Source: Candidatus Treponema caballi
GTDB taxonomy: Bacteria; Spirochaetota; Spirochaetia; Treponematales; Treponemataceae
Assembly: GCA_018066285.1 (NCBI GenBank)
Contig: JAGHRS010000032.1
Span: forward strand, 1-55,018
Reading direction: 5' to 3'
Length of the DNA: 55,018 bases
A model generated the notes under the pieces. That model saw nothing but the letters and a program-made list of their open reading frames with translations. It was not told the origin of the DNA and searched no databases. A program made the translations under genes and the position numbers. This document shows positions 34,982 through 40,081 of this stretch, one piece after another. The stretch's first letter is position 1, and every line of letters begins with the position of its first letter.

Positions 34982-35031
34982 GGAGGAATCTTTTAAATGA
35001 AAAAGGCTCTCGTAATTCTTATGGCTCTTGC
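34982..35031 (+). repeat. 50-bp inverted repeat, left copy (5' end of Msp-like gene 1)
   Basis: Runs from GGAGGAATCTTTTAAATG through the first signal-peptide codons to CTCTTGC. Identical in all 50 positions, in opposite orientation, to 38482-38531. Bases on either side diverge at once. Possible recombination site for inversion of the 3.5-kb segment. Confidence 0.92.
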
Positions 35032-36403
35032 AATGATTTTCAGTGCATTTGCTGATGAACCTGCTTTCGCAGGAAGTGTTACAGAATTCAAAGGCGACGC
35101 TTCTGTTACTTGGACTGCAGATTTTGATGCAGGAAAAACAGGATTTTCAAATTCTGCAAGTGCAGATTTGAAGGTTGAACTTGTTCCAGCTGGTGACAAG
35201 GCGACTGCCGGTGAAGGAATCTGGGGAGAAATCAAGATTAAGACTGATGGTCTTCAGATTAACGATGGTGCAATCGATAAGGGAACAGCTTCTGTAGATA
35301 CAGCTAAGATCCACTTCGGCGATGCATACATTGGAGTTAAAGCTGGTGGTGTTCAGGTCGGTGGTGTTACTGTTCTTGAAGCTATCAACAACAACAAAGA
35401 CGGTGAGGAGCACAAACTCGGAGCTGTTGGAACAAAAGATGTTTCAAACGGTATTGTAGCAGGCTATGCAAACGACCTCTTCGGAATCGATGTAGACTTC
35501 CGTTCAAAGCCAGCTGCTGCAGGTGCTGATGAATTCACATTTACACCTCTGAATATCGATAGTACTTATGTTCCAGCTGAAAAAGAAGTTGTTTTTATTC
35601 CAGCATTCGGTGAGAAGACTGGTGATGGAAAGGCAACAATCAAGAAACTGTTCGGAAACGAAGCTGCAGCTCTTCTTGACACCGGTTATTATAGTGCTTA
35701 CAAAAAAGTAAAGACAGACGGTGCTAAGGCAACAGACTGCACAGACGAGTATGCAGTTGCAGGTAATCTCAGTGTTACAGCTGTTCCAAACCTCACACTG
35801 AAGGGTGGTATCTCATATGACCTTTCATGCAATAAGGGCAACATGGGAATCTACGGAGCAATTGCTTATGACTATGCTATCAACGATACATTCTACTTAA
35901 AGCCACAGGCTGCTATCGCTCTCGAGGGAAAGGACGAATTTACAAAGAACGTAAATGCAGCTCTCTTCCTCGGATGGAACAAGTCAGAAGGAAACGGTGG
36001 CAAGCTGATGGGTGCTGATGTTAAGTTCTCAAATGGTTTCTCTGTAGCAACAGACTTTGCAATTGCAGATCCTCAGAAGTTACCACTTGACATCACAGTA
36101 TACGATGCAGCTTCTCTCGTAAGCGGCCTGACATTCGGTGCTGCTTTCAAGATTGCTGACCTCAAAGCAGATTTCGCAGCAGATATCACTGGTAAAGTAG
36201 CATACGATATCGCTGCTGGTGCTGGAACAATCACAGCTAAGGCTGAAGCTGCAACAACAGCTAAGTTCGATAAAATCGAGCTTGATTCAGGTCTTGATTT
36301 CGCTGGCTTTGTTGACAACACAACATTCGGTCTTGGTTACAAGAGTGGTGACCTCAAGTCAAAGAAGGGTTCAGTTTCTGTAACTGCAAAGGTTGCTTTC
36401 TAA
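34997..36403 (+). CDS. Msp/MOSP-like outer-membrane beta-barrel protein 1
   Basis: 468 aa. Signal peptide MKKALVILMALAMIFSAFA, cleavage before DEP. The mature part is built of alternating polar/hydrophobic strands rich in Gly, Asp and Lys and ends in Phe (VTAKVAF), as outer-membrane barrels do. EGIWGEIKIKTDGL and AKIHFGDAYIGVKAG recur in Msp-like gene 2 and resemble the N-terminal region of treponemal major outer sheath proteins. Probably a porin or surface antigen; family assignment is from pattern, not search. GGAGG precedes the ATG. The 5' 50 bp are the left inverted repeat. Followed by a terminator and a lipoprotein gene. Confidence 0.78.
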   Translation: MKKALVILMALAMIFSAFADEPAFAGSVTEFKGDASVTWTADFDAGKTGFSNSASADLKVELVPAGDKATAGEGIWGEIKIKTDGLQINDGAIDKGTASVDTAKIHFGDAYIGVKAGGVQVGGVTVLEAINNNKDGEEHKLGAVGTKDVSNGIVAGYANDLFGIDVDFRSKPAAAGADEFTFTPLNIDSTYVPAEKEVVFIPAFGEKTGDGKATIKKLFGNEAAALLDTGYYSAYKKVKTDGAKATDCTDEYAVAGNLSVTAVPNLTLKGGISYDLSCNKGNMGIYGAIAYDYAINDTFYLKPQAAIALEGKDEFTKNVNAALFLGWNKSEGNGGKLMGADVKFSNGFSVATDFAIADPQKLPLDITVYDAASLVSGLTFGAAFKIADLKADFAADITGKVAYDIAAGAGTITAKAEAATTAKFDKIELDSGLDFAGFVDNTTFGLGYKSGDLKSKKGSVSVTAKVAF

Positions 36404-36429
36404 TCTGATTAGAACGTGATTTTTCTAAA

Positions 36430-36460
36430 GGCTGTCCTGTTTTCAGGGCAGCCTTTTTTT
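36430..36460 (+). terminator. Rho-independent terminator after Msp-like gene 1
   Basis: GGCTGTCCT pairs with AGGGCAGCC (one G-U), TTTTC-type loop, then seven T. Confidence 0.88.
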
Positions 36461-36485
36461 CAATTGAGAGAATCACTAAAACATT

Positions 36486-36491
36486 TACAAT
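36486..36491 (+). promoter_or_regulatory. -10 box, leaderless type, for lipoprotein gene 1
   Basis: TACAAT, then 7 nt, then ATG at 36499. No ribosome site. Confidence 0.45.
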
Positions 36492-36498
36492 ACTTAAT

Positions 36499-37155
36499 AT
36501 GAATACAAGAAACATTATTAAATCATTTATTTGCTGTATCTGTCTTTTCTCCTTATTCTCATGCGCTTCTCCTCCAAGAAGAATTTCTTCAACTGATCAG
36601 TCAGATGATTTTTTTCTTGCTGATTTACCCGGCATTCAGCTTGAACCTGTCATGCTTTTGTGTGCAAAAGGAACGAGCAGTGTTGCATCTGTGGAAGTCA
36701 ACAGCATGTTCTATCCGCGAACCGGCAACCTGCAGTTACGGGCTAAAACGGGAACAAATAACTTTCAGGTGATTTTCTCATATGAAGACCGGAAAGCTCT
36801 CTATGAAGATATGCAGAAATATGTAACCTTGTTACAGTCAAATAAACTTCCGGATAGGGCTCCAGCAAAAACAAATGCTTTTTCTACAGGAAAAGCAGAT
36901 ATTTCCTGGGGAGTTTTAGGATACGGTTACGATGCAAAAGGCTTGTATTATACAAATTACGAGTATCTCGAGGAAGATAAACCCTATTTCTCTTTGACCT
37001 TCAATCCTTCCCGCAATACAGAAGGTGATACCTGGTCACCATTGACGATTATTTATTTTTCGCCATCACAGATTCAGGATGTATACGATATTATGTCTTT
37101 GGAAGTGATAAAGCAGCAAGTTGATGAAAAGACGAGACAGGTTTTCGAATACTAA
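36499..37155 (+). CDS. Lipoprotein 1 of a paralogous pair linked to Msp-like genes
   Basis: 218 aa, family not recognised. Signal peptide with lipobox (LFSCAS), so a membrane-anchored lipoprotein. Shares with the protein at 39419-40081: LPxRAPxKxNxF, WGVxGxxYxA, NYEYLExxKPYF, IYFxPSQ and a terminal VDExxRQxxEY/W. The two are therefore paralogues with equal length and layout. Each lies close to an Msp-like gene, so a role in the surface layer is plausible but not shown. No ribosome site; TACAAT 7 nt upstream. Confidence 0.82.
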   Translation: MNTRNIIKSFICCICLFSLFSCASPPRRISSTDQSDDFFLADLPGIQLEPVMLLCAKGTSSVASVEVNSMFYPRTGNLQLRAKTGTNNFQVIFSYEDRKALYEDMQKYVTLLQSNKLPDRAPAKTNAFSTGKADISWGVLGYGYDAKGLYYTNYEYLEEDKPYFSLTFNPSRNTEGDTWSPLTIIYFSPSQIQDVYDIMSLEVIKQQVDEKTRQVFEY

Positions 37156-37178
37156 TATACAGTAAAAAAATCAATCGG

Positions 37179-37213
37179 AAAAAAAAGAGCAGGCATAACA
37201 CCTGCTCTTTTTT
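37179..37213. terminator. Bidirectional terminator between lipoprotein 1 and Msp-like gene 2
   Basis: AAAAAAGAGCAGG (37181-37193) pairs with CCTGCTCTTTTTT (37201-37213), 7-nt loop. Serves both convergent genes. Confidence 0.9.
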
Positions 37214-37232
37214 GCTTAAGACTTAAGCTAGA

Positions 37233-38516
37233 TTAGAAAGAGATTGTTGCAGAAGCTTCAACAGCTCCAGTCTTTCCCTTTCCGCCTGTGTAGCCAACTT
37301 TGAGAGTTGTGTTCTGGATAAGAGCCTTGTTATCAACAGAAACACCATATCCAAAGTCAAGAGCCTTTCCAACGAATGTGTACTTAGCACCTGCGTTTGC
37401 AGCAAATCCGAAGTCACCGAATGTTGTTGAGTACTTAGCATTAACAGCACCGAAGTCACCAGCTCCCTTAGAGAACTTAGCTACATCGTCAACGATTACT
37501 TCAGCACCAACTACGAGACCTGGGAGGAATGTTGCATTGTCGAATGCAGCAACACCAAGACCGAACTTCTTGAAGTCTGCTGACTTAACAGCTGCAGAAG
37601 CACCACTTGCGAAGTCCTTCTTGTCATCTCCATTTCCTGTGAAGTATGCGAACTTGTCATCTGAGTAGTCAGCACCCCACTTGTACATAACGCCAGCACC
37701 GAATGATGTTGCACTGTCGTATGCAGCAGAAATTGTCAGGTCACCGAGAGCATAGCCAGCCTTAGCAGCATAAGCGAAACCATCAGCTGCGTCTGCATTG
37801 TATGATGCACCGCCCCAGAGTGTCAGGTTGTCAACAGCCTTAACATCGATGTCACCCTTGAATGCGATTTCCTTAGCAGCCTTTGCTTTTGCACCATTGT
37901 CAGCAACAACTACGTTGATGTTAGCAATCTTGTCGAGTGCAATTTCAGCTGTGAAACCGTTTGTAAATACAGCTTCGTCAGCCGGAGCTTCGTATGTAAC
38001 CTCGTACTTACCCTGTACTGATGTGTGATCATCATCGTTCAGAGTATATGTACCCGCTACATAACCTGTCTTCTCTTCTTTACCAGTCTTTGTTGTCTTT
38101 GCAGCAATACCAGCTGTCTTAGCTGAGAAGTCACCAGTTACGAAGTCTGGACCATTCTTTCCGAGAGCAACATCGTGGTTCTTAACATCAATTGCAAATG
38201 CTTCACCGAAGTGGATCTTTGCCTTTTCTACAGATACTGAAGATTCTGAAAGACATTTTTCAGCAGCTGTCTTGATTTCCAACTCGCCCCAGATGCCTTC
38301 GCCTTCTGTTGCCTTTGTTGCTTCACCAGCAAAACTGAATGTGATTTCAGCTGATGCTGAGTTGGTCATGCCAAATTCCTTTGCATCAAGATCTGCCTTG
38401 TAGCCGAGTGATGCACTTCCCTTAAAGTCCTTGAATGCTGGCTCGAGTGTTGGGTCTGCAGCGAATGCTGAGAATACCATAGCAAGAGCCATAAGAATTA
38501 CGAGAGCCTTTTTCAT
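37233..38516 (-). CDS. Msp/MOSP-like outer-membrane beta-barrel protein 2
   Basis: 427 aa paralogue of the protein at 34997. Signal peptide MKKALVILMALAMVFSAFA (one residue different) then ADPTLEPAF. The mature protein is much diverged but keeps EGIWGELEIKT, VEKAKIHFGEAFAI and the terminal Phe (ASATISF). The DNA of the first 50 bp (ribosome site to codon 12) is identical to gene 1, in sharp contrast to the rest. Preceded by a strong promoter and a leader of about 75 nt with a hairpin (AACGTTACC/GGTAATGTT). It converges on the lipoprotein 1 gene across a bidirectional terminator. Confidence 0.78.
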   Translation of the reverse strand: MKKALVILMALAMVFSAFAADPTLEPAFKDFKGSASLGYKADLDAKEFGMTNSASAEITFSFAGEATKATEGEGIWGELEIKTAAEKCLSESSVSVEKAKIHFGEAFAIDVKNHDVALGKNGPDFVTGDFSAKTAGIAAKTTKTGKEEKTGYVAGTYTLNDDDHTSVQGKYEVTYEAPADEAVFTNGFTAEIALDKIANINVVVADNGAKAKAAKEIAFKGDIDVKAVDNLTLWGGASYNADAADGFAYAAKAGYALGDLTISAAYDSATSFGAGVMYKWGADYSDDKFAYFTGNGDDKKDFASGASAAVKSADFKKFGLGVAAFDNATFLPGLVVGAEVIVDDVAKFSKGAGDFGAVNAKYSTTFGDFGFAANAGAKYTFVGKALDFGYGVSVDNKALIQNTTLKVGYTGGKGKTGAVEASATISF

Positions 38517-38531
38517 TTAAAAGATTCCTCC
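38482..38531 (-). repeat. 50-bp inverted repeat, right copy (5' end of Msp-like gene 2)
   Basis: Exact reverse complement of 34982-35031. Covers the ribosome site, ATG and first 11-12 codons. The serine recombinase gene starts 274 bp outside it. Confidence 0.92.
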
Positions 38532-38593
38532 TTAACTTTTAAACATTACCAAACCAACGGTTTTTTAATACGGTAACGTTATCTTTTTCTTAA

Positions 38594-38622
38594 ATCTTAA
38601 CACGCATATTTTCAGCCGTCAA
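38594..38622 (-). promoter_or_regulatory. Strong promoter before Msp-like gene 2
   Basis: TTGACG (38622-38617), 17-nt spacer, TAAGAT (38599-38594). Because it lies outside the inverted repeat, inversion of the 3.5-kb segment would put Msp-like gene 1 behind it. Confidence 0.75.
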
Positions 38623-38670
38623 GCAAATTCAAAGAATTTTATGATTTTTGGGAAAATCTGAATGGCAACC

Positions 38671-38739
38671 AACCCTTATGGCATAAGGGTTTCTCCCTAT
38701 AAATAAAAGAATGACAAATTACTTTTTTTTGTCATTCTT
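38671..38739. promoter_or_regulatory. Two palindromes upstream of the serine recombinase
   Basis: AACCCTTAT/ATAAGGGTT with a 3-nt centre (38671-38691), and AAGAATGACAAA/TTTGTCATTCTT with a 9-nt centre (38707-38739). Either could be an operator or recombinase binding site; no partner copy was found elsewhere in the window. Confidence 0.5.
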
Positions 38740-38805
38740 GTCGTTTTTATGAATATTTTAACCTTTCTATGCAAACATTGCAGAAAGGCATTACCTGGAG
38801 GAAAA

Positions 38806-39483
38806 ATGACCTATGGATACATCCGTGTAAGTACGGATAAACAGACAGTAGAAAACCAGCGCTTCGAAATAATCCGCTTTTGTTCAAAAAATAATCTCAC
38901 AATAGATGACTGGATTGAAGAGACTATCAGTGGAACAAAAGAGCCTTCAAAACGAAAACTCGGAAAACTTCTTAATAATGTTCAGAAAGGTGATCTTATC
39001 ATCTGCTCCGAATTATCCCGTTTGGGAAGAAATCTCTTCATGATTATGTCTGTATTGAACGAAATGATGCTCAGGGAAGTGCGTATATGGACAATAAAGG
39101 ACAATTACAGGCTCGGCGATGACATACAGTCTAAAGTCCTCGCATTTGCCTTCGGGCTTTCCGCAGAAATTGAACGCAATCTGATTTCACAACGCACAAA
39201 GGAAGCACTTGCCCGTAAAAAAGCAGAGGGCGTCAAACTGGGACGCCCTAAAGAAACTGAATTAAAGTATTATAAACTGCGTGGACACGAAGATGAAATC
39301 TGGATGCTGCTTGATCAGCGGGTACCTAAAACTCACATAGCAGATATATTCGACGTTACACCCGCCACTTTATACCGCTACATGAAAATAGTCGGCATTC
39401 CGCTGGAAAAAGACGTTTTTACCACTCGTATGCCTGACGGTTCAGCTCATCCACACGGGCCTGGAACTCATCCTGATCAATAG
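38806..39483 (+). CDS. Small serine recombinase (resolvase/invertase family)
   Basis: 225 aa from the ATG at 38806, which has GGAGG 5 nt upstream; the open frame also extends 19 codons further 5' without a ribosome site. N-terminal catalytic domain with YIRVSTDKQ (nucleophile Ser9, Arg7), ELSRLGRN and the long E helix SAEIERNLISQRTKEALARKKAEGVKLGRP, followed by a HTH (KTHIADIFDVTPATLYRYMK). Such proteins invert or resolve short DNA segments, including surface-protein switches. The last 22 residues, after the HTH, are encoded antisense to the end of lipoprotein 2 and look unnatural, so the gene has probably lost its original stop. Confidence 0.9.
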   Translation: MTYGYIRVSTDKQTVENQRFEIIRFCSKNNLTIDDWIEETISGTKEPSKRKLGKLLNNVQKGDLIICSELSRLGRNLFMIMSVLNEMMLREVRIWTIKDNYRLGDDIQSKVLAFAFGLSAEIERNLISQRTKEALARKKAEGVKLGRPKETELKYYKLRGHEDEIWMLLDQRVPKTHIADIFDVTPATLYRYMKIVGIPLEKDVFTTRMPDGSAHPHGPGTHPDQ

Positions 39484-40081
39484 TCTCAAGCAATGCTTCA
39501 AGCTGTGATGGCGTAAAGTAGATATCCATTTTAGGCGAAGCTGTGTCATCTTTCTTTGCATTTGCACTCTCGAACGTAGCAACAAAATACGGCTTTTCCC
39601 TTTCAAGATACTCGTAATTAATGCGTACATAGGTGTCTGCAGAGTAAGAAAGACCCATTACTCCCCATGCGACTGTAACCGGCGTTCTGGTGAAATAATT
39701 CTTCCTATCCGGAGCACGTTCAGGCAGATTTCCGGCATTATACGCTTCCATATAAGCCATAATGCCTTCCTTAAAGGCAACACGCTCTTCCAGGGTGAAC
39801 ACGACAGCTATCTTATCCATTCCATAGGAAAAATAGGCTTCAACGGTATTCTGGCGGGGAGCAAAATACATTTCCATTTCTTTCGGTATAATCGTTCCTG
39901 AAAGGGATTTTGTCACAGCCATGCAGTTATCAAGCTGGAACGGTTTGAAATCGCCGAGGAAATTTTCATCCGGCTCACGAATGGTGGTTTCACCCTTACT
40001 TGTTGTAGTACATCCCGCACATGCAAGGATGATTGCAAAGACAGCACACAAAGCTGCAAGTCGGATTATATTTTTACGCAT
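39419..40081 (-). CDS. Lipoprotein 2 of a paralogous pair
   Basis: 220 aa, family not recognised. Signal peptide with lipobox ACAGC. Shares LPERAPDRKNYF, WGVMGLSYSADTY, NYEYLEREKPYF, IYFTPSQ and the VDELNRQAYEW end with the protein at 36499-37155. AGGAG precedes the ATG, unlike its leaderless paralogue. Its last 65 bp overlap the recombinase gene tail to tail. Because the C terminus is conserved between paralogues, this frame is the native one at the overlap. Confidence 0.84.
   Translation of the reverse strand: MRKNIIRLAALCAVFAIILACAGCTTTSKGETTIREPDENFLGDFKPFQLDNCMAVTKSLSGTIIPKEMEMYFAPRQNTVEAYFSYGMDKIAVVFTLEERVAFKEGIMAYMEAYNAGNLPERAPDRKNYFTRTPVTVAWGVMGLSYSADTYVRINYEYLEREKPYFVATFESANAKKDDTASPKMDIYFTPSQLEALLETIDQDEFQARVDELNRQAYEW

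Follow-up and report, generated by a model that had tools for sequence, protein, structure and literature searches.

The window analysed here is one entire contig of 55,018 nucleotides (nt) from Candidatus Treponema caballi, whose genome comprises 2,909,601 bases in 75 contigs, and the system in question is a pair of convergent genes for outer-membrane proteins related to Msp, together with a serine recombinase gene beside them. MspA (34997..36403, forward strand) encodes a protein of 468 amino acids (aa) with a signal peptide, and MspB (37233..38516, reverse strand) one of 427 aa; in the present orientation MspB is predicted to be expressed and MspA to be silent. An earlier reading of the sequence alone had described an exact 50-bp inverted repeat at the 5' ends of the two genes, and this is borne out: positions 34982..35031 (+) and 38482..38531 (-) are identical over 50 nt, each copy containing the ribosome-binding site (RBS), the start codon and codons 2-12 of its gene, that is, the interval from -15 to +35 relative to the ATG of both MspA and MspB. 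The inverted repeat continues imperfectly (93 nt at 84% identity).

The strong divergence of the two mature proteins noted in that reading was also found, with about 36% identity overall, about 45% over residues 21-85 and 29% beyond the first 85 aligned residues. Protein and profile searches of the genome found no third Msp relative. The Msp profile NF033926 is matched by 9 of the 21 aligned sequences (best value 4.5e-13); neither MspA nor MspB matches it at E 0.1, and both are therefore classed as Msp-related only. Barrel families are matched by some of their relatives, the Msp profile gave no match against solved structures, and the AlphaFold model of MspA is strand-rich with a mean pLDDT of 45, too poor for use.

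The sequence-only reading had also suggested a check for further genes with the same 50-bp 5' end, since many unrelated sharers would point to conserved translation signals only. A search of the whole genome that tolerated as many as three mismatches to the 50-mer found no site besides the two repeat copies, and the reversed-pattern control gave 0. At positions with the same residue, codon identity is higher in the first 12 codons than in the gene bodies (p = 0.0095 for MspA and MspB), and across all pairs the same test falls below 0.05 in six of nine, both pairs of genome G143 and the pair of G168 not being significant. Because pairs in other genomes behave alike and the identity of the first 12 codons exceeds that of the bodies, the repeat is not a product of chance.

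Expression site and recombinase

The promoter comparison covered the 130 nt upstream of each complete Msp start. The strong promoter that had been noticed outside the right repeat was confirmed, and it lies upstream of the right gene only. It occupies 38594..38622 on the reverse strand, with TTGACG (38622-38617) and TAAGAT (38599-38594) separated by 17 nt, at -106 relative to MspB. Between promoter and gene lies a 5' untranslated region (5'-UTR) hairpin (38542..38580, reverse strand) with the inner stem AACC-GTT-GGTT and a covarying outer stem. MspA has neither element.

The small serine recombinase (38806..39483, forward strand; 225 aa), the proposed invertase, begins where the earlier reading had placed it, its ATG at 38806 lying 274 bp outside the right repeat; this ATG, which has a good RBS in front, was preferred to the start of a longer open reading frame (244 aa) at 38749. 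The protein scores 317.6 bits against the NCBIfam equivalog NF009949 ('master DNA invertase Mpi family', cut-off 272) and contains the resolvase catalytic domain PF00239 (E 8e-34) and, above cut-off, the C-terminal helix-turn-helix PF02796. The catalytic-domain motifs YGYIRVSTDKQ and ELSRLGR are kept in its close relatives (46-73% identity).

Comparison with related genomes

The named genus mates were assembled from metagenomes (rumen, goat cecum and horse faeces among the sources) and are classified as Treponemataceae or Spirochaetaceae, and a scan of the genome collection with a narrow alignment yielded seven named loci. Exactly one Msp copy per set bears the promoter in G000 (the present genome), G006, G055, G143 (one of three copies), G168, G246 and G254. 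In G079 and G096 another porin-like family flanks a recombinase, one copy having the same promoter layout and the hairpin and the other having none of this. Porin sets with a single promoter-bearing copy were found in nine genomes in all, most of them with the covarying 5'-UTR hairpin.

The outer stem of this hairpin varies in sequence by species, and its arms pair at 7.7 of 8 positions within species versus 3.7 of 8 across species, a difference to which the choice of best-fit arms contributes somewhat by favouring the own-species value. A single loop motif is present in each of G000, G005, G006, G055, G096 and G143. G079 has two, one of which precedes no porin start and apparently lies inside an unrelated coding sequence. 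The hairpin, with its conserved inner stem around GTT, was seen to single out the expressed porin of 11 relatives, approximately once per genome; a role in mRNA stability or in translation control can be guessed.

Orientation in related genomes, another check proposed from the sequence, came out in favour of inversion, as silent copies on the same contig almost always oppose the expressed copy (G000, G006, G055, G246, G254, G143 with both of its silent copies, G088 and G079). Two geometries are found. The genes are convergent and the segment between the sites carries the genes in G000, G055 and G246; they are divergent and the segment carries the promoter in G006, G254 and G079. In either geometry, to judge from the sequences, an inversion at the start-region repeats would switch the gene that is read; for instance, a flip of the intergenic piece of about 1 kb in G006 would turn the promoter from gene B to gene A. 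Contig ends that coincide with the 5' edge common to the copies (G003, G206) might be taken as a sign of mixed orientations; they were not counted, since the neighbouring contigs of G206 overlap by the 21-nt shared site alone, an overlap that assembly with a small k-mer would give as well.

The proposed switch and its alternatives

The locus is probably a two-state inversion switch for a porin-like surface protein, with MspB ON and MspA silent in the assembly. The fixed expression site, composed of promoter and 5'-UTR hairpin (38622-38542, reading leftward), stands outside the right repeat. Enclosed by the 50-nt repeats are two complete convergent genes of presumed barrel type, of which only the one beside the expression site would be transcribed. 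The Mpi-type recombinase would pair the start-region repeats and flip the segment of about 3.5 kb, which would put MspA in place of MspB behind the leader and leave the reading frame and the signal peptide undisturbed. The earlier reading had followed the same logic, which is supported and fits nearly all of the comparisons. Relatives share the parts of the system, namely copies in inverted orientation of which a single one has a promoter and, in many cases, a recombinase next to them, and the comparison across Treponemataceae raises what had been a guess at inversion to a strong inference. We infer that inversion takes place, that the adjacent recombinase is its agent and that the crossover falls within the 50 nt.

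Several observations weigh against this interpretation. With a single assembly for each species, no inverted molecule came to light. In G001 neither of the two Msp copies has a clear promoter and the recombinase is 97 kb away, and in G246 and G254 the genes are paired and the recombinase is distant. In G096 a silent start fragment lies on the strand of the expressed gene, because the fragment is inverted relative to its own body: at L130:3754-4997 the first 73 or so codons of the silent porin are inverted with respect to the rest (tblastn, opposite strands), which is possibly the fossil of an aberrant inversion. Inversion switches of this kind would be expected to have a dyad crossover site of about 26-30 bp inside the repeats. 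Within the repeat, a dyad centred on the start codon is weak (7 of 10 pairs) and scores like a background that is small, biased and mostly of the same gene type; as the dyad is no better than this background, it does not pin the position of the crossover.

In addition, a second class of genomes (G088, G105, G202 and G206) has a comparable layout, and no serine recombinase was found in them. Their silent copies have no RBS, ATG or first nine or so codons and begin at a site of 21-30 nt within the signal peptide, ATGGCAGC(CGCGGCGG/AATGGTTG)CTGC (loci L094, L102, L103, L104, L100, L101, L096 and L097). This group must rely on homologous recombination or on a different enzyme, and the agent therefore cannot be read from the gene pair alone. 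G105 also has a third silent copy (G105:C17, L128:4150), apparently of another outer-membrane protein family, with the same truncated signal-peptide site at its start.

Among the alternatives, an exchange of 5' ends by general homologous recombination or gene conversion, with the adjacent recombinase as a bystander, fares best and is itself unlikely. The identity shared by paired 5' ends within a genome is long in G254 (280 nt) and G246 (119 nt), which speaks for such a process, and the remote recombinases of G001, G246 and G254 and the class-2 layout point the same way. The shared identity amounts to 80 nt in G006, 76 nt in G001 and 60 nt in G055. However, the stretch is only 50 nt long in the present genome and 30 nt long in G168, short for RecA, and most pairs have abrupt upstream edges. 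Comparison between species supports the proposed switch: this 5' stretch in G000 agrees with that of its genus mates at 43-50 of 73-74 positions, with exact runs of only 9-20 nt. Past exchange, in line with the switch, is evident in G002, whose leader corresponds to the expression leader of G006 gene B (82% DNA identity) and whose body is the orthologue of the silent G006 gene A (77% DNA and 68% protein identity); leader-body junctions were therefore exchanged after the species split. The downstream flank of this silent-type body requires another event besides inversion at the 5' site, which again favours homologous recombination.

The location of the recombinases argues for their involvement. 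An Msp-like gene lies within 1 kb of a recombinase in 8 of the 19 genomes that have both (G000, G006, G055, G143, G144, G168, G174 and G238), far above the approximately 0.08 expected by chance (Poisson tail about 5e-14). Serine recombinases are present in the paired genomes of class 1, and none was found in the single-Msp genus mates G002, G003 and G005.

It is highly improbable that no recombination is involved and that the pairs are old paralogues whose RBS and signal-peptide codons have been kept because translation and export are under selection. In favour of this view, the region is under functional constraint and species share MKKALVI-type starts, but the 50 nt are absent from every other gene of the genome, synonymous positions agree within a genome and not between species, promoterless copies retain the identical 5' end, and the silent copies of class 2 have not even a start codon. 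Equally hard to credit is an accidental position of a recombinase that belongs to another nearby element, such as a lost phage or transposon, since its adjacency to Msp or other porin-like sets recurs in 10 genomes of two genera and nothing recognisable as a phage or transposon gene adjoins the Msp-linked enzyme, even though many Treponemataceae recombinases of the same family have neighbours of other kinds, including genes that look like restriction-modification genes, and the second recombinase of this genome sits in a prophage tail-fibre cassette region.

Beyond inversion at this locus, a modular form of switching may extend throughout Treponemataceae, a proposal whose chances we consider evenly balanced. 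Each genome would have one expression site (promoter and 5'-UTR hairpin) and several outer-membrane genes without promoters of their own, one of which would be joined to it through a recombination site at the RBS and start codon, with unrelated porin families sharing the module, and a second lineage would use signal-peptide sites, silent copies without start codons and a different recombinase.

Known systems and neighbouring features

The best-known surface variation of treponemes is gene conversion, as in TprK, and no earlier account of DNA inversion of Msp-type porins in treponemes was found in the open-access literature. As far as sequence comparison can tell, the bacteria studied here very probably swap their surface coat by DNA inversion. 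If so, a heritable switch would let gut treponemes trade one porin-like coat protein for another, and phage attack, nutrient uptake and recognition by the immune system are all predicted to be affected. The repeat at the start codon and the RNA leader at the active locus would then allow the ON gene and the silent repertoire to be predicted from sequence alone.

In Salmonella, the small serine invertase Hin flips a promoter segment between inverted sites. The present recombinase is likewise a small serine invertase by family, and that of G079, like Hin, is encoded within the segment that would flip; however, Hin turns a promoter, whereas here whole genes would turn. In Dichelobacter nodosus, inversion at omp1 reportedly places outer-membrane variants with common 5' ends behind one promoter, as Moses is said to have described in 1995. 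The exchange of such variants behind a single promoter is the feature in common, while the protein family and the organism are unrelated and the recombinase and multi-gene arrangement differ. The 1995 work of Moses is cited in PMC5903667. In Lactobacillus acidophilus, inversion of an S-layer segment exchanges the expressed and the silent gene of the slpA/slpB pair behind one promoter, and we know of no Mpi-type recombinase beside the slp genes of this species. Expressed and silent surface genes in opposite orientation and the inversion of a segment are shared with the treponemal locus, although the slp genes are Gram-positive S-layer genes. Compared with both omp1 and slp, the Treponema system is distinguished by an unrelated porin-like family, repeats at the start codon and a structured RNA leader. 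The silent slpB of L. acidophilus is discussed in PMC6015585.

Mpi of Bacteroides fragilis is a master DNA invertase that acts on 13 invertible regions (PMC4747536, PMC5903667). The treponemal enzyme belongs to the same recombinase family according to the NCBIfam equivalog, surface-structure genes are the targets there and the proposed targets here, and the arrangement in G006 resembles an invertible promoter. In contrast to the B. fragilis system, the structural genes here lie inside the piece that would be inverted, the promoter is fixed and the sites overlap the start codons; in addition, the 50-nt site, searched with up to three mismatches, occurs at one locus, and the many sites of a 'global' invertase were not found in that search, which shorter or more degenerate sites could have escaped. 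A read-based survey reported inversion signals in one of eight spirochaete species, which is not named in its main text (PMC5903667).

Two genes of a lipoprotein-like family accompany the locus, one within the proposed invertible segment (36499..37155, forward strand; Msp-associated) and the other just beyond the recombinase (39419..40081, reverse strand), whose 3' end it overlaps. Neither has a Pfam or NCBIfam match. Similar genes adjoin Msp genes or the recombinase in G143, G105, G246 and G254, following Msp in G143 and G105. A hairpin 3' of MspA (36427..36456, forward strand) and a second one with T/A runs in the convergent interval between the lipoprotein-like gene and MspB (37185..37209, not assigned to a strand; a probable bidirectional terminator) look like terminators and would insulate the convergent units. 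The C-terminal tail of the recombinase (39405-39483), which overlaps the convergent lipoprotein-like gene, is about 25 residues longer than in its relatives, which suggests that the two 3' ends were joined recently.

Apart from the Msp-linked enzyme, the genome encodes only one serine recombinase. This second Mpi-like protein lies in a prophage-like region (L028:10671-13204, G000:C32) beside five or six tail-fibre C-terminal cassettes spaced by CGAACGTTTTGATTAC repeats, probably a tail-fibre shufflon. Because it adjoins these cassettes and their repeats, a relative of the Msp-linked recombinase probably acts on inverted cassettes in the same organism. In other Treponemataceae, five loci (L065, L072, L075, L076 and L080) have Mpi-type recombinases beside further porin-like genes that start with MKKIVGI and for which no promoter is obvious.

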